A stretch of 64,000 nt of DNA. Source: Odontesthes bonariensis. Lineage: Eukaryota; Chordata; Actinopteri; Atheriniformes; Atherinopsidae. The DNA lies in NCBI RefSeq assembly GCF_027942865.1, contig NC_134515.1, positions 19,180,227-19,244,226 on the forward strand, in the 5' to 3' direction. The position numbers and the translations under genes are program-made. The notes below the pieces were generated by a model. It searched no databases, was not told the DNA's origin, and worked only from the letters and a program-made list of their open reading frames with translations. Shown in pieces: positions 5,101 through 20,598 of this stretch (its first letter is position 1; each line of letters opens with the position of its first letter).

Positions 5101-7086
5101 GTGCAACCAATCCAAAAGAGATCTTGTTCTCTGCGTTCTGCTGGTTGACACCGTCTACACCCCTTCTGACTTCCTCAATTCGTCAAATTTGTTTGCGTTA
5201 GTAATCTTGTCAGGAAATACACAAACAACAACTTTGCTATGAGGACATCACATGCTCTGACAATGTTGCTGTAATTTCAATAAAGAACCATGAATTAAGT
5301 TCACAAATTCATCATCCTTCTCCCTCATTTTCTGTGTCCATACCTGTGTTTGCAAGACGGAAGTGTTCTACAGAAAGGACATGCACACAAAAATATTTGG
5401 TGCATCTACACAAATGCATAACAAATTACTTAACTCTCAATTTGACTGACACCAGTAGTCAAACGCTTTAAATACCTCTTAGAGATACACACGTCTTAAT
5501 TATTTCATCAGTTAAAATATTTTCTTTAAAAAGCTTCATCTGATACCACCACTGTGCAAACTTTAGCAAATTAATATTTTACATAATATATTCAGAAAGT
5601 CTTTGAGAGAACCAAGCTTTCAAAAGGAATCCAATTTCCAAACAGTATTTTGTTGCCCTTCATGTGGAGTAAAATGGGCTTTAACAAGTTTCAATGATTC
5701 AAAGATTGCTTCGATCCAACAACCCCTTCTGTTAAGATCAACAGAAAAGAAATGCTTTGATCTGATCAAGCAACCACAGAGACATGGAGTTGGATTACAC
5801 AATATCCGGGCGGCAGGGTGTTCCTAATGTTATGGGACTAAGTATTCACCAAAAAAGCACAGGCACTGTTGTGGAGTTTTTTCCTGTTCTGAGGAATGTG
5901 CCTCTTCCCTTCTGGCCTGTTAGCACTTTTCCCAACACCATATTTGGTATTAGAGGAGTGGAGGAAAGTAGGAGGAGAGTGAGAGTAGCTTTGGCCTATT
6001 ATGTCAGCGGTGATTAAACAAACCAGCCCTGGGACAAAAACCAACCACCAATTTATCCAGCACCAAAAATGGGCACACAGATGAGCTATTTGGACTATAT
6101 CGGCCAAAACAAGTTTATGACAATCTGACAGAAGCGGGATGTACACAGTCTGTCAAAACAAGACTAATGAGGACAGATGTGAGCTCAGAATACGTTTGTC
6201 TTTTAAAAAAAGAAAATGCCCACATTCAAAAACACAACAACTCACGTCAAGGCTGTTTAATACTTTAACGTTATGGACAATGGCTATTTTTGACGTACCA
6301 GACAACAGTGCAAAGCATGTCTCACTCGCATTTATAACAAGTTTGGCTCCAAAACTGACATGCAGATCACACCCTGCACACTCCGATCAGACATTGTTTT
6401 AGTGGAAGACGGACCCTCCTCACCGACTTACCATGAATTTGATCCAGGCTAAATTCAATCTGGAAATGACAAGCAGTGGCAAGAGGTAAAGTGATGAAAC
6501 AGTGCGGAAATAAAGACGGAAAATGTAGTCTAAAACCACGACTACTGCGACAGGCGAGTACAAAGCAAGGTGATAGCAGTGATACAGGGCAAAGTGCCAT
6601 CTGAGACCATCAAGAACGAAGGCATGCCAAACAAGCTGGATACAATGAAAATGTCAAAACACAACGATAAAAACAAACTTACCAAGGATTTGATCTTCCG
6701 AGAAGTCAGACTGTTCAAAAAGAAATTAGGCTAGATGAAAATGCTTCCTTTTGCTGAGCAAAAATACTTCGGGTTTACTTCGCTTAGATAGATATCTCAG
6801 AGTAGACAAAGTAACACATTCGGTGATGCTTAGTGTACTCTTGGTACTTTAGTGCCGTCAATTAGCTTATTGTGTGGCTGATCTTTTTTTTTTTTTTTTT
6901 TAACCTAGTGCAAGCTAATGCTAGCTTAACAAAAGTTGCACTTCCGCTTGGGACCAACGAGCCCATTCGGGTTTTAGGCGCATCTTAATACCTTTTCAAA
7001 AGTAAACATTTTTTCTTGAAAAAGAAACATTTAACTGCACAACTCTGTTACTGATATTAAGTCGAGAGAAACGAAAAACCCACCAT
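2113..7086 (-). CDS. myl6: Myosin essential light chain 6, six coding exons
   Basis: Smooth-muscle/non-muscle essential (alkali) light chain, which clamps the IQ helix of myosin heavy chain in the actomyosin motor. Coding exons in transcript order, by plus-strand coordinates: 7084-7086 (ATG only), 6683-6710, 4647-4790, 4367-4540, 3076-3153 and 2113-2141. They total 456 nt, or 151 aa plus stop, the length I recall for human MYL6. The internal exons of 28, 144, 174 and 78 nt match the remembered family structure. Visible motifs are [16 protein letters not shown] (about residues 12-27), DFEQFLP (66-72), the EF-hand [19 protein letters not shown] (95-113), [12 protein letters not shown] (131-142) and the ending AFVRHIMSG. 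All frames join without a break. Every junction is GT-AG except intron 4, which has a GC donor at 4366-4365. I saw no alternative penultimate exon (the mammalian ELVRMVLNG type) in 2142-3075. The 3' UTR end below 2113 was not located. Confidence 0.95.
2968..3013 (-). repeat. Teleost SINE/LINE 3' tail fragment
   Basis: Read on the minus strand this is close to the widespread fish repeat core 'gtcgctttggataaaagcgtctgct', followed by a TGTAATG-like tail. It lies in myl6 intron 5. Only the tail is recognisable, so the family (V-SINE-like or L2/CR1 3' end) is not assigned. Confidence 0.55.
3447..3865. mobile_element. TTAA-flanked MITE in myl6 intron 4
   Basis: The element occupies 3451-3861 (411 bp) and is flanked on both sides by TTAA (3447-3450 and 3862-3865). 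The left end reads AGCAATACAATGTAACTTCT. The reverse complement of the right end reads AGTAATACTATGTAACATTT. These are imperfect terminal inverted repeats of about 20 bp. A TTAA duplication is typical of piggyBac and Kolobok transposons, and I cannot decide between them. There is no coding capacity. The interior is more GC-rich than the intron around it. It lies between myl6 exons 4 and 5 and leaves all splice sites intact. Confidence 0.75.
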
Positions 7087-7260
7087 TTCTGTGTTGGCTG
7101 AGGTGTGTCCGAGGAGAAGGCAAACCCAAGAATGTGACGGCACGAATAGAAGGCTGAAAAAACCCTCGTATTGCTGCGTCATGACGCATAGGACGTACGG
7201 CCCGACGTCGCGGCGGTGGGACTTGCAGAGTAGTCGCACTCCATATATAGAAACAAAGCC
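7084..7260 (-). promoter_or_regulatory. myl6: myl6 proximal promoter and 5' UTR exon
   Basis: On the minus strand, a TATA-like box CTATATATGG (plus-strand 7241-7250) lies about 30 bp before an inferred start near 7215. A leader of about 130 nt follows and ends at ATG 7086-7084, which abuts a donor (ATG|GTGGGT). The box is one base from an SRF CArG site (CC then six A/T then GG), which would fit a contractile gene. That link is inference. The leader region is CpG-rich compared with its surroundings and holds the perfect 14-bp palindrome TGCGTCATGACGCA at 7175-7188, made of two ATF/AP-1-like half-sites. The start site is inferred from spacing only. Confidence 0.6.
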
Positions 7261-9380
7261 GAAGGTGTGGTTTGTGTTTCATATGGCAGGATTTACAGAC
7301 CTTGAAATGTTCTATTATTACTTTTCTTTTACATGGCAACAAAGTCCAGACCCCCTGTCCTGAGGACAGGCAGGTCATTGAAAAGAAACACTTCATATTT
7401 TGCAGCACTCAGATAGGGGACCATCCTTCACCAAGAAGCTAGTAAAGATTCTGTGAAAGGTGGTTGACAGTAACATCAGAGACTTGGACTTCGAATGCTG
7501 ACTAGCTGTGCTGTACAAGTACAGCCACCCGTTTTATGCTAACATGGTAAGGGTCCAAGGATTCTCTGCCTTCCTCCTCATGATCAATAAGGTGTCAGCC
7601 TCAATAGTCAAATGGTCTGAGAGAGGATCAGCAAGCTCCTTTAGTGTCTGGACTTACCTTTGAGCTTGAGCATTATCCCCTTATATAGTCAGAGCAACAA
7701 ACCGAGACTCCCCATCAACAGCTCAGATGAAAAAATATATGATCGCCCAAACTAGGGAGGTGCTGCAATACTGGTCATGTGATCCAAAGATTAAGGGTAT
7801 AGAGGTCAGGCTAGGAAAGATGTAAAGGGCGGTTAATGTGATGGTTTGGAGGGGAACAGCATGGGCAAGATGGGAGCAAGTAAAGCAAAAAGTCTCATGG
7901 ACTGCATCACAGGAGCCAGTGAATGAAGGGCCATTAAATTGAATACCTAAAGAAGCAGAGGTAACTTCAAGGTGGCTGTTGTGGTGGATCATGAGAGCAG
8001 ATCCTGTGGTAGCGTTTAACTACCTGGACACAAGAAAGAGCTGGATCACATCTGGGTCACCTGGATGATGTCTGATGTTTAAAGACCCAAAACACTTCAT
8101 AACCCAAAGATAATAACCGATGGTGTCTTCATATATATCAACATGTCAAATGAGGCAGAATAGGTGGGTAAAAACTTGTATCAAATTATTTTTAGAAAGT
8201 TGAATTATGTGTCCAAAACAAGGCTAATTTACATGTATTAAACATGTTTGCAGGAATATTTAATGTTAATTAAGTTCTACATAATATCAGTTACATTTAA
8301 GTAGACTGCTGTTTTTTTTTTTTTTTTTAAAGTGTGTTCTCAAAGAGGATTATTTTCACAGTGTTTTAAGACATGTTTGGCCCTTTGCAGTGTGTGTCTG
8401 ACTTTAATGATTTTGACCCAAAATGAATGCAAGATTGTGCTCCAGCTTTATGTTAAGGATGTGCGCATCTGGACATGCAGGAATGACAGATTACTTGAGG
8501 CCAGTGATATCATGGACTGAAGCCGGATCTCTTAACTGGTGAAATTACTGTCTTTGCCCAGAAGGAGGTCTGGCTTCATGTCATCTGTGATGTGTGAAGA
8601 GAAGTGGCCCACATATTCTCACAGGCTAAATGGGTCTGTCTCACTCCTTAAAACCATGCAAATGCATGCAGTGTAATATTTAAAGCTCATGAAGGTGGCA
8701 GCAAAGCTACTAAAAAGATACTAAACGAGCTAAGACACTGCAAACTCCAATGTGGGGCATCCATTAATTGGTGATACAAATTTGACTTTATCAAATTTTT
8801 ACTTTAAAGTGTTGATCTGAGTAGCATATGCCTGTCTTTGACCTGATGACACTGTGATGATTTGGACTAATGATGATTTGCCACAATGGTCACAGTGCAT
8901 TCTGCACGAAGATTATTGTGCTGAAATGTTGAATTTGATATCAAAAACATGTTTAAAAGATGAGACTGAGGCATGTTGCTGTAACTATGGAGCATCACCT
9001 CTTATTCAACAGTTTGGGAACCGAGGAGACAAATTGTTGTAGTTTTAAAAGCGAAATGTTTTACCATCCTTGTGTGACGTAACGTTTCAGTTGCTCAGTT
9101 GTTTGGGGCCTCTGTGGTTTCCTTTCCTTTCTTTTTTTTTCTTTTTCTTTTTAAACTGTGTTCTAAAAAGCCAACTAATAAGGCCACGGGACAGTTTACC
9201 ACCATACAGAATCATATCTCTTTTCATGCAGGTCTGGGTGTGGGTATGAAAAGGCTTATGCAGGATTAGTTCTTCAACTTTTTGCTTGTGTACAGTGGTA
9301 TCTCCAGACTTCAATCTTCTCATAATATTGCACCATTGATGATGAAATCCTAAATTCTTTTCAGGTGTTTACTGAGAAAA
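7261..9380. other. Non-coding stretch between the two myl6 first exons
   Basis: No gene seen. If the long myl6 isoform exists this is part of its first intron. Poly-T tracts lie at about 8313-8328 and 9128-9152. The block 7430-8060 has slightly more even composition than its neighbours, but I could not tie it to any family. Confidence 0.5.
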
Positions 9381-10376
9381 TTTAACGGAGGCACTGATTG
9401 CCACACAGTCACACAATCAGAGAGTGGTGGACCCCTCCTATCTGTACATAGACATAGAGGGGTCATCAGGGACTTTGTCAGCTGGTGTGAACTGAACCAC
9501 CTTTGCATCAAAGCTTGCAAGACGAAGGAGCTGGTGATTGACTTTCGCAAAAAGGCACCTCACCTCACGCCGGAGAACATCCAGGGATGAGACATTGAAA
9601 CTGTGGCGGACTACAAATACCTGGGTGCTCACCTCAATAACAAACTCGACTGATACACAAATTCTGATGCACTTTACAAGAAGGGCCTCAGCCGTCTTCA
9701 TCTGCTAAGGGGACCGAGGTCCTTCGGAGTGAACAGGAGTCTCTTAAGGACTTTTTATGACACTGTGGTTGCGATCTTTTATGGTGTTGCCTGCTGGAGC
9801 AGTGGAATGGCAGAAAGGGACAGGAGGAAACTCAATAAGCTGATTAAGAGGGCTCACTCTGTCCAGGACTGCCCTCTGGACCCCAATGAGCAGGTGGGTG
9901 AGGAGAGGATGTTATCTAAGCTAAAATCTATCAGGAAAAACACATCCCACCCCCTGCATGTGACGGTACGGGCTCTGAGCAGCTCATTCAGCAACAGACT
10001 TTTACTCCTGCAGTGTAGGAAGGAACAGCACCGCAGGTCATTCATACCGGCAGCTGTCAGGCTCCATAACACCACACGAGTGCATTCACTCATCACTCAT
10101 CACCACTGCTACTTACTATTTCAACTGCATCTTTCCATTTTTATATGTTGTATATATTATTTTATATACATATATATGTATATGATATGCCATTTTGCAT
10201 CTTGTACATACCTTCTTGTATTTGTTCATTTATTTTTGTGTATATTCCTTCATCACAGAGTTCTGGAACGTACAATTTTCTCACTCGTGGCATAACAAAG
10301 GTTATTCTATTCTATTCTATTCTATTCTATTCTATTCTATTCTATTCTATTCTATTCTATTCTATTCTATTCTATA
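9380..10376 (+). mobile_element. Decayed L2-like non-LTR retrotransposon, 3' fragment
   Basis: The conceptual translation shows the C-terminal half of a fish L2/CR1-type reverse transcriptase: DFVSWCELNHL, TKELVIDFRKK, ADYKYLGAHLNNKLD, LRTFYDTVVAIFYGVACW, HPLHVTVRALSSSFSNRLL and HRRSFIPAAVRLHN. In-frame TGA codons occur (for example in GACTGATAC, where a Trp codon is expected) and there is no 5' half, so this is a dead, 5'-truncated copy. It ends in a 3' UTR and the (TTCTA)n tail typical of these elements. The open frame 9729-10295 within it is transposon remnant, not a host gene. It sits between the two myl6 promoters in opposite orientation. Confidence 0.85.
10302..10375. repeat. (TTCTA)n microsatellite at LINE 3' end
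   Basis: About fourteen uninterrupted TTCTA units directly after 'cataacaaaggttat'. In fish L2-type elements such arrays are the 3' tail, so this belongs to the LINE fragment. Confidence 0.9.
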
Positions 10377-10910
10377 TTTTGAAAAATGAAGCAAGTAAAA
10401 TCTCAACATTTTTCATCTAGTGAAAACCAGTTGTGTACTTTGGACTTGGACTTCTAATTGTGTTATTTTAATTTTTGTTCAAATGACTGGTTAGTTGGTC
10501 ACAGGGAGCAGGCTATTCATTTGTTTGACCTTTCTAAGGAGAGAACTAGCTCACACTGTGGCAGGAAAAAGCCTCTCTCTCTCTAAGGAGGTCACAGACT
10601 GACTGACAACCAGCATTCAGTGCCCCATTTCTCTGCTAAACTTAGATTTGCTCTGAATCCAAATTCATATGTTAGAAATAATAGAGAAAGCTTCCTTATA
10701 GATAGTAACCTGGAAAAACACCATTTTATGTTTTAATGCTATTGAATATCACAACTGATGAAGTTTAACATATTATGTTTGAATTAGAAGTTATACTTGT
10801 GCATGAAATAAGGCTGGATAGATAGAACAAAGAATATATTAAAAGTCATAATTAATGAATGCCCCACAGACAGGTAGCCACAAACAATATACTTCAGTTA
10901 ACCTACTCAC

Positions 10911-11087
10911 CTCCAAAGTGCTGGGGTCAAATGGTAAATCTGAAGGACGAAGCATCCTTGGCTTCTGCTCTGGAATTGGTTTAGGAGCTGCAAGAGCTGC
11001 AGGCAGGCAGGGATATGGGGGACCCAATCTGGGTTGGGTCACTGGTGAAGGAGACTTCTTAATGGAGGGTTCTCTTTTAGGAGCCAT
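10911..11087 (-). CDS. myl6: Alternative long-isoform first coding exon of myl6 (59-aa N-terminal extension)
   Basis: Open from ATG 11087-11085 to a strong donor (GAG|GTGAGT; last exon base 10911): 177 nt, 59 codons, ending in phase 0. The peptide starts MAPKREPSIKK, continues rich in Pro, Ala and Lys (AALAAPKPIPEQKP), and ends LPFDPSTLE. This is the layout of long essential light chains: a MAPKK-type start, a Pro/Ala/Lys tail that contacts actin, then a short linker. Joined to myl6 exon 2 (SDFSEDQIL) the frame is kept, and FDPSTLE-SDF lines up without gaps with the FDPKSVK-IDF stretch I recall in MYL4. No second light-chain body lies between 7.3 and 10.9 kb, so the exon most likely serves myl6 from a promoter about 4 kb upstream, as in MYL1. 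It could instead be a relic of a myl6b-like tandem gene. An in-frame upstream ATG exists at 11156. Confidence 0.7.
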
Positions 11088-12673
11088 TCCCAAAGTCCTG
11101 GACGATCTAAACTTAGTGAAAAATCTCTGCAAAAGCTGCCAGTGTGGCTGCTGCAAAGGAAAATATCAAGCTATGAAGTAAAGTGTGGCAGCTGTGTGAA
11201 TCCTATGAAGGTGAGGGGGAGGAGAGCTGCGTTATGATGCTGATGATGCTTGGGGATTTGCAGGTGGATGAGGCAGGAGAGGATGTATGAAGAAGCATGT
11301 GAGTGAAAATGTGAAGCAAAGCATAGGAGGAGTGGAGATGAGAGCACAAGTGTAGAATAAAGGGACAGATTTAGATATAACCAGGCTGACTCCAAGCATG
11401 TGCTTTTATTTGGGTCAGAAATATGAGTGTATGTGTGTGTTTGGGGGTGTTGTGTGTAGGTGTGTGTCTCTGGAAACTAGCTATGTTAGTAAAGATGGGT
11501 GATTAGAGATACCATACTATTAGAAAGAAAAAAGTTATCTCATTAATAATCCATAATTGAGCACATAATCGTACAATGAATACATATTTTTTCTGTTTGT
11601 GGTGCCCAGACATTTCCCCCATCTGCAGAGATGACACTGATGCTATATTCACAGAGTCAAACAGTAAGGACTCAAAAAGTTCACCATAGGCTCCCCAAAA
11701 TTAGACTCTAGATTATGTTTACTTTTTTAAAAATATTATGTGTTATATTGATTGGTGTTATTTATTCTTTTTTTAAAAAAAGTGAAGTTTTACCATTTGG
11801 CTTACACCCAAGAACTATAAATGGCAACAATTTTAATCTTCATGTGATGGTGTGAAATAAGTAGATGCAACCCTGTTTTCCACTGCTATCCTGTCCTGTT
11901 TTTTTTTCTTAATCTAAAGGTTTTTGTGGGCTCTTGCATTTGAAGGTAAAGACAGAAAATATGGGCAGAGAGAGTGATGGCATATAAATTCCCATGCGTT
12001 AAGACTAAACTGGGACATTGGCCTGTACCGTGATTTCCACTTGACCGAATCATGTCTTCAAATGTTGTGCTGTCTGAGGGCTTCAAGTGCATACGTACCG
12101 GTTTTTAGCGAGTTTCTTTCTTTTTTTTTCTTGACCCTGACAACGTTTTGGGAAGGAACAGGCACCACCAAAATGAATAAGCCCCTTACCCCCCTATCCC
12201 AAACAATAGTCTTTTACATTTGATTTGTATTTGTCTTTCCGTTCCTAAATATAAGATTTAAATTGTTTGAAAATCGTAGCATTTTCTTTTTCATTATCAT
12301 TTCACTTTTAATGGAAAAATGCATTAAATACATTTTTTTCTTACTTTATTTCATGCCCATATCATATCAGGTGAAAAATGTATTCAGTTGTTTCTTTGAA
12401 ACAGCTTGTAAATCAGATTTTAAAACACGAGTGTGGTCATATTGCTTCTTAATGAGAACCATGACTTTTGATCATTTAAGATGATCTGTATATTATATGC
12501 AGACAGAATAGTCTAGAGAAACAATGCAAGAACCAGTGACTGAACAGTGCAGTCCACAGAAGTAACACTAGGTGTCACTATAACCCAGCAAGAAGACAGG
12601 AGACAATATTTCCTCCCCAAAACTTTGTCAAACTGTTAACTGAACCACGTAACAGCAGCCAGTTTAAAACACA

Positions 12674-18542: not shown

Positions 18543-19533
18543 GTGAGTTCGCTGTTTTGTTCATCTTTAGATTCAAATCAAGTAGGTCAATATAAGAAAA
18601 TACGAAAACAGGCTATTTCATCTTTAAGTTAAATATCAACCAAGTCTGTGCAACTTAATTTAATGCACTTACATTTCCCTGCAGCGGGTCAAAATAATAA
18701 ATCATCGATTTACAAAATATAACCTAAAGTTAGGGAGAACTTTTCAATTAAGTGAAATCAATGTCCTCCAATTTGGTCGCTAATCCTGACAGATTTGCAT
18801 GCTCAAAATTCTGAATTATTAATTTGCTTTAATCTGCCCCACTTTTGCGCATTAGTGCGCAATAATTAACTGGGACAATTTTATGCAAAACAACAGCAAC
18901 TTTTTATGCATCGCATCTTCCTTTGAATCAAAAGAAAGATAAGAGAAAAAAAACAATATTTACATTTGCAAACACATTCAGATAATATAATATAGTCTAA
19001 TATATTAATCCTCTCCTCTGTATTGTTGTGAAGACTATTTGCGCGGCTTGTCCACATGTTTGTTGATTTTTATGCTGCCTATTTAATCTTTGCGCTTTAT
19101 ATGCGAGTAAATCCCGTCGTGTCCCAGATTGACAGCGTCTCTAAAGGGAGTTCAGCATAACAGCGGGGGACCGACAATTCAGCCACCTCGTTCCAAAAGT
19201 ATTTTTAATGTAAGAGTATCACAGTGTAGACCTATTAATATATAACAATTAAAGGGTTTGAAATATTTGATATGAGAGCGGCAGTGGTTTATGAAGTGTG
19301 CCTTGATGAGTGAGCTGTCCACTCTGCAGTGCTGAAATAAGCGCAATCACTCTATAGCCTATTTCATCGTACATGTGTTGTCAGTTACTTTCTTCGAAGT
19401 GCTGTTTCTGGTTTCTGCCATTTAGGAGTAATAATACTAATCTATGCAAAGATTAGCGTTGTTGCACAATGTAAAATAAACGAAAGAAAGAAAGAGTTTC
19501 TCATCAGTTTTTGTTATTCTACTTCAGATCAAA

Positions 19534-20598
19534 ATGATGACCAAACCATTTGGAAAAAGTGCTGACATGAGTGAGCTGGTGAACTCCCTGGGCTGGCTTG
19601 ATGAGGATGGCAGCTCACAGGATGGCGATGAAAGCCCAGAGATGCACCATGGCCTGACTGCAGGAGGTGGGATCCACTCCTGCACAGAACTTGGCAGTGA
19701 GGATATGGAGGAAGAAGAGGAGGAAGAGGATGATGATGATGAAGTTGGGTCAAACAGAGAAGAGGGTCCCAAAAGGAGAGGTCCTAAGAAGAAGAAGATG
19801 ACCAAAGCTAGAAAGGAGAGGTTTCGTGCCCGGCGGGTCAAGGCCAATGCCAGAGAACGTTCCCGTATGCATGGGCTAAACGATGCTCTGGATAATCTCC
19901 GCAGAGTTATGCCCTGCTACTCCAAAACACAGAAGCTATCAAAGATAGAAACTCTAAGACTGGCCCGAAATTACATCTGGGCCCTGTCAGAGGTGCTTGA
20001 GAGTGATCAGTCCACAGAAAGCCATGGTTTTGTGGAGATGCTGTGTAAAGGTCTGTCTCAGCCCACCAGTAACCTTGTTGCTGGCTGCCTGCAGCTGGGA
20101 CCCACTCCATTGATTCTCAACAAACTGGAGGACAAGTGTGGAGGTCCAGGAGTAGGCAGTGTGGTGGCTGGACATCCCCTCAGTTACCCATCCCCAGGCC
20201 TTCCTAGCCCACCTTACGGCTCCCTGGAGGCATCCCACTTCCTCCATATGAAGGGATTAAAAGGGCCTGTGTATGACAACCCCTCCCCTAACGAGTGCAG
20301 CAGCGGGACCCCTCCATATGATGGGCCCCTCACTCCCCCCCTCAGCATCAGCAGTAACTTTGCCCTGAAGCAGGAGCCTTCTCCACATGAATCAGAGAGG
20401 AACTACACCCCCCACCTTGGACACCATGCCCACTACCTCTCGTCCCACCATTACCCCACTTCCACAACTGGCAGCCTAACAGGGATGCCTCAGGCCCACC
20501 CAATCTTTCAGGCTTCTCGTTATGAGCTGCCCCTGGATGTGGCCTATGACTCCTTCACTCACTCTCACCTGGTCACCTCTCAGATGGGCACCATCTGA
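19534..20598 (+). CDS. neurod4: Neurogenic differentiation factor 4 (proneural bHLH)
   Basis: Nuclear transcription factor that binds CANNTG E-boxes as a heterodimer with E-proteins and promotes neuronal differentiation. 354 aa in one exon; from memory human NEUROD4 is 331. An acidic run lies at about residues 56-70, then a basic NLS-like segment ([14 protein letters not shown], 80-93). The bHLH covers about 100-154, with basic-region core NARER at 105-109 (Glu108 is the E-box-contacting residue), loop [20 protein letters not shown] and helix 2 [10 protein letters not shown]. The family C-terminal block follows: [20 protein letters not shown] (about 165-184), [14 protein letters not shown] and [32 protein letters not shown] and [11 protein letters not shown] point to NEUROD4 rather than NEUROD1, 2 or 6. 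The exon starts at 19528, six bases before the ATG. Met2 directly follows Met1 and could be the true start. The only upstream partner is the non-coding exon at 18.3-18.5 kb. Confidence 0.97.

Follow-up and report, generated by a model that had tools for sequence, protein, structure and literature searches.

A MYL6-type essential light chain gene of Odontesthes bonariensis with exons for a short head and a predicted long head

Introduction

In MYL1, exon 1 is used with exon 4 and exon 2 with exon 3. The human light chains MLC1sa and MLC3nm were treated in a 1990 paper by Hailstones and Gunning, the title of which reportedly refers to isoform evolution. The MLC1/3 (MYL1) locus is described as having two promoters and two alternatively spliced isoforms, with an exon structure conserved in chicken, rat, mouse, and human (PMC2841079), and the extension of MLC1f is reported to contact actin and to slow detachment (PMC6456215). 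MYL6B and MYL6 are given as two genes in mammals (PMC7710916), and MYL6/6B are mentioned among splicing variants (PMC13031461). Searches confined to open-licence literature yielded no description of a long form from a fish myl6 gene. Here we describe a MYL6-type gene of O. bonariensis located in the window, the whole 64-kb stretch of DNA that was analysed, and compare it with the other essential light chain (ELC) loci of the same genome and with known light chains.

Results

The window gene had nine exons, the phases and splice signals of which agreed throughout, in the order A-M-S-I-body (Table 1). The original prediction had proposed a distal extension exon (A), a proximal first exon contributing ATG alone (M), and a SDFSEDQIL exon (S), and all three were found as it described them, exon A at exactly the position given. 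Exon A, which ends in the strong donor GAG/gtgagt and has G at both -3 and +4 of its start ATG, encoded an extension of the predicted 59 residues, but this began with MAPKR instead of the expected MAPKK, and its content of Pro, Ala, and Lys was 44%, compared with 59-78% in the genome's other four long heads. Residues 1-25 of exon A aligned to no solved chain, the best stretches beginning at residues 26-31, and the sole other match of this exon in the genome had an E value of 3.59 and 31% identity. Three further exons had been absent from the prediction: the small exon I, which lies between exon S and the common body and has both a strong acceptor and a strong donor, and the last exons F and G. 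The intron between exons S and I was 223 nt long. Both of these 28-nt exons end in phase 1, and each can be joined to exon C. The message A-I-C-D-E-F had an open frame of 209 aa and M-S-C-D-E-F one of 151 aa; in the messages A-S-I and M-S-I the frame was lost, with a stop one residue past exon S. Since exons S and I are both 28 nt and the frame is lost if they are joined, one protein cannot contain both, and their exclusive use would need splice-site choice or loss of the faulty message. Because there are two alternative last exons, the locus could make up to four proteins. The anatomy of a MYL1-type head switch was found, namely a distal extension exon and a proximal ATG exon, both in phase 0, and two small exons, one for each head, and it supported the proposal that a MYL6-type chain occurs in a long and a short form through two alternative first exons.

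Table 1. Exons and putative promoters of the window gene (positions in the window) and the ELC loci recognised in the genome
Feature	Position	Strand	Description
Exon A, long-form head	11087-10911	minus	177 nt, 59 aa, MAPKREPSIKK...FDPSTLE, phase-0 end
Exon M, coding part of proximal first exon (ATG alone)	7086-7084	minus	phase 0, donor ATG/gtgggt
Exon S, short-form head SDFSEDQIL	6710-6683	minus	28 nt, ag acceptor, gtaagt donor
Exon I, long-form partner IEFSLDQIH	6459-6432	minus	28 nt, ttccag/ATTGAATTTAGCCTGGATCAAATTCATG/gtaagt
Exon C, common body	4790-4647	minus	starts AG TTC AAG (EFKEAF)
Exon D, common body	4540-4367	minus	GC donor AG/gcaagt
Exon E, common body	3153-3076	minus	
Exon F, alternative last exon	2141-2113	minus	AFVRHIMSG, LC17a-type tail
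Exon G, alternative last exon	1086-1058	minus	(E)ELVRMVMSG and stop, LC17b-type tail
Putative distal promoter/5' UTR	11088-11688	minus	CpG o/e 0.13; E-boxes CACCTG 11266, CAGCTG 11194
Putative proximal promoter	7087-7387	minus	CpG o/e 0.84-1.13; TATATATGG/CArG-like CTATATATGG at 7250
Window gene	within C15:19180227-19244226		both heads (A, M-S, I), both tails
C3 locus	20.62 Mb (C3:20618001-20626500)	minus	M and S only, tail G only; presumed duplicate of window gene
C17 locus	25.47 Mb		A- and I-type exons, long head only
C16 locus	10.98 Mb		S-type exon only, short head only
C19 loci, two	16.867 and 16.883 Mb		A- and I-type exons
C27 locus	16.15 Mb (C27:16151500-16157500)	minus	intronless, long head
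C7 locus	0.24 Mb (C7:239500-245500)	plus	intronless, long head

Some other features of the gene were observed. The donor of exon D (4367-4362, minus strand) has GC in place of GT, and scans of bacterial/archaeal and viral contigs with this exon detected no relative and no stray vertebrate sequence. At 9438-10420, the intron between exons A and M contained a LINE-like reverse-transcriptase remnant (open frame 9654-10295, plus strand) and a run of TTCTA/ATAGA repeats.

A search of the genome for ELC genes gave 52 matches, 20 of which were assigned to eight ELC loci; the other 32 (best E value 7.5e-9, 45% identity) were taken by assumption for calmodulin-like sequences and left out. Among the eight recognised loci, the window gene alone had both heads at one locus, and there was no separate MYL6B-like gene, that is, a second MYL6-type body with a long head. 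The absences of heads given in Table 1 refer to the stretches fetched, which were 18 kb for C3, 19 kb each for C16 and C17, and 38 kb for C19. The intron of the C3 copy showed no relic of exon I (best score 15, simulated mean 15.8), and searches for relics of S in C17 and of I in C16 likewise gave no score above that of simulated sequence. The 18 kb of C3 held no LC17a-type last exon. Tails as well as heads may have been divided between the window and C3 copies. The fast-muscle MLC1-type (C17) and MLC3-type (C16) products are encoded at separate loci, the reverse of the window gene. The intronless C27 and C7 loci had MYL3/MYL4-type long heads in a single open frame from head to stop and were paired in the tree (87/89). 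They resemble a working gene that arose long ago as a retrocopy of a long-form message. The tandem copies on C19, 15.7 kb apart, were 99.9% identical over more than 10 kb; either they arose by duplication very recently or they are an artefact of assembly.

The window and C3 copies also had neighbours in common. A NeuroD-type bHLH gene was found at 19525-20595 of the window, 8.4 kb upstream of exon A, and another about 21 kb upstream of the S exon of the C3 copy, the neighbourhood of which also held a SMARCC-like gene (Myb domain above the Pfam cut-off, SWIRM below) and mitochondrial EF-Ts. These common neighbours fit a teleost duplicate pair. The human genes NEUROD4, SMARCC2, and TSFM are located on 12q13-14. 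A C1q-domain exon directly precedes the window on C15. MYL6B, a C1QL gene, HOXC13, and ERBB3 appear in one published synteny list, and this set is described there as having paralogous regions derived from two vertebrate genome duplications (PMC3679108).

Over 132 residues, the body of the window gene showed 85, 80, and 80% identity with MYL6, MYL6B, and MYL1, respectively, its best PDB match was MYL6, and the tails encoded by exons F and G matched the two known MYL6 tails. The gene has the MYL6 traits of a body nearest to MYL6, LC17a and LC17b last exons, and an ATG-only first exon with a short head; it departs from the trait of making the short form only, exons A and I being present. Short form only is a trait of mammalian MYL6 and not necessarily of the MYL6 family. 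In an unrooted tree (12 rows, 134 columns), the two fish MYL6-type genes were sister to MYL6B plus MYL6, with support of 86/85 for the mammal/bird MYL6B plus MYL6 group and 84/88 for all five sequences, fish genes included, neither value being starred. The AU test rejected none of the groupings of the fish genes with MYL6 without MYL6B (p = 0.097), with MYL6B without MYL6 (p = 0.098), or with MYL1 (p = 0.111). A position of the fish genes outside MYL6 plus MYL6B is the pattern predicted by a split after the fish-tetrapod divergence, which the tree suggests with modest support. The unrejected grouping with MYL1 would also suit a window gene that belongs to MYL1 and merely resembles MYL6, but we give this reading hardly any credence, because the sequence is nearest to MYL6, both MYL6 tails are present, and the NeuroD/SMARCC-like neighbourhood occurs at the two fish copies. 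Separate MYL1-like loci, C17 and C16, moreover exist, though in the unrooted tree this pair did not group with mammalian MYL1; the name MYL1 for them therefore rests on head type and on their resemblance to zebrafish myl1 and mylz3.

Exons A, S, and I were compared with chance expectation in two ways. Patterns of the A-, S-, and I-type exons with splice dinucleotides each had a single match in the 64-kb window, whereas none of the three matched anywhere in 150 simulated 64-kb sequences, a post hoc control in that the patterns were drawn up after the family was seen. In a less circular control, the I-type peptide of C17 was slid along the intron between exons S and C of the window gene, and exon I was picked with a score of 33, compared with a maximum of 26 in 40 simulations.

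According to the original prediction, exons A and M both splice into the SDFSEDQIL exon. The phases permit this, but exon I is present as a dedicated partner, and A+I outscored A+S by 4.4 to 4.9 bits on all seven PDB chains (three MYL1 and four MYL3) whose match extends into exon A. The long-form junction to be expected is therefore 10911-6459, not 10911-6710. For the short head, M+S outscored M+I by 3.5 to 5.6 bits on six of six MYL6 chains from the PDB. Human MYL6B favoured exon I over exon S in both the A-head and the M-head settings (262.6 vs 259.8 and 255.1 vs 251.4 bits, respectively). MYL6 chains favoured A+S over A+I (9z3w, 282.4 vs 277) because S is the MYL6 head. The first position of the 28-nt exon was hydrophobic in eight long heads (window exon I, C17, C19, C27, C7, MYL6B 1oe9, MYL1 6ysy, and MYL3 5tby; in the intronless C27 and C7 the exon border was inferred) and polar in four short heads (window exon S, C3, C16, and avian MYL6 6xe9). 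Of the loci with introns and a long head, the three others (C17 and both C19 copies) had an I-type exon after the head and no S-type exon in the stretches fetched, and the two other short-head loci (C3 and C16) had an S-type exon. Splicing of exon A to exon S, with exon I spare or minor, would agree with the phase of both exons and with the open frame of A-S-body (209 aa); it is nevertheless very unlikely as the main arrangement, in view of the intact exon I with its strong splice sites, the better fit of A+I to long chains, and the exon order at C17 and C19. Some A-S messages may still be made. The coherent messages are, as we infer, A-I-body and M-S-body.

Exons A and I contained no stops, frameshifts, or broken splice sites. 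If they are as old as their MYL1 and MYL6B counterparts, this intactness would imply long selection. It also counts against the reading that exons A and I are untranscribed relics of a long form and that the gene now makes short MYL6 only. The loss of both exons from the C3 copy without detectable trace and the atypical, P/A/K-poor head of exon A would be compatible with such relics; we nonetheless regard them as quite improbable, and C3, from which A and I have disappeared, illustrates the fate of neglected exons at a locus of this kind.

Upstream of exon A, two MyoD-type E-boxes were present where 0.69 were expected, which was not significant, and the motif scan found neither a MEF2 nor a full CArG site. 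A bacterial promoter scan of this region was set aside as uninformative for a vertebrate. In the putative proximal promoter, CTATATATGG was TATA/CArG-like. The contrast between a CpG-poor distal and a CpG-rich proximal region would fit a tissue-restricted and a general promoter, respectively, and is suggestive only.

Discussion

The window gene is very probably the teleost counterpart of mammalian MYL6 and MYL6B together, with a complete MYL1-style head switch kept in one gene. In the mechanism that we propose, a transcript from the distal CpG-poor promoter would start with exon A, skip exons M and S, and splice to exon I, and this message would encode a long essential light chain, the extension of which has 59 residues, is rich in Pro, and is net basic. 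The proximal CpG-rich promoter would yield a transcript that begins with the ATG-only exon M, splices to exon S, and skips exon I, and its product would be the ordinary short MYL6. Use of both promoters and pairing of A with I and of M with S in real mRNA are predicted from the anatomy, and the extension, poorer in Pro, Ala, and Lys than related heads, may tether actin more or less strongly. By analogy with MLC1f, the long chain would give non-muscle, smooth, or slow-muscle myosin an additional actin tether.

The original prediction had left open whether the arrangement is an ancestral state or a fish invention. The tree and the MYL1-like order favour the former, though tree support is modest and the alternative placements stand unrejected. 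The order A-M-S-I-body is that of the MYL1 exons, and with the position of exon I it favours inheritance from a common ancestor of MYL1 and MYL6; the tetrapod line would later have divided the arrangement between MYL6B and MYL6. That the dual head is a teleost invention, in which myl6 acquired new exons, or a former tandem MYL6B that lost its body, would be allowed by trees that reject no other placement. We consider it unlikely, however, since the A-M-S-I order equals the MYL1 order, exon I lies between exon S and the body, and the stretch between exons A and M gave no match to another ELC body. A broken upstream MYL6B would have left exon I between A and M, and the variant with a lost tandem MYL6B body was rejected because exon I sits where it does. 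Taking inheritance from the MYL1/MYL6 ancestor as the preferred reading, we lean towards the broader view that the head switch arose before the vertebrate genome duplications and that vertebrate ELC genes started from it. In mammals, MYL6 would then have been divided into MYL6B and MYL6 and MYL1 left undivided; in this fish, MYL1 would have been divided (C17 long, C16 short) and MYL6 left undivided.

If both chains are still made from this one fish gene, it would represent the missing intermediate, and the origin of the MYL6B/MYL6 pair would become directly testable. It would also provide a clean case of one old switch partitioned oppositely in two lineages, and a model for taking the actin-tethering head off a non-muscle light chain while leaving its body intact.

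Compared with known systems, the window gene resembles MYL1 (MLC1f/MLC3f) of birds and mammals in its distal extension exon, proximal ATG-only exon, two alternative small exons, and common body, but differs from it in having a MYL6-type body and two alternative tails. The MYL1-like loci of this fish are divided in the stretches fetched, C17 having the long head only and C16 the short head only, whereas the window gene is undivided. As in MYL3 and MYL4, the long head ends in an FD-type motif and is joined to an I-type exon; however, in MYL3, MYL4, and the fish C19, C27, and C7 chains the first EF-hand loop is longer by two residues (RTPxxEMKI), which the window gene lacks. Mammalian MYL6B (MLC1sa) has IEFNKDQLE before the body (1oe9_B) and MYL6 (MLC3nm) has the short head, and together they correspond to the two products predicted here. 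Human MYL6B ends in AFLKHILSV, whereas the window gene ends in AFVRHIMSG or ELVRMVMSG. Mammals divide the task between two genes, MYL6B and MYL6; in this fish, one locus would provide both the short and the long chain by the device of MYL1.
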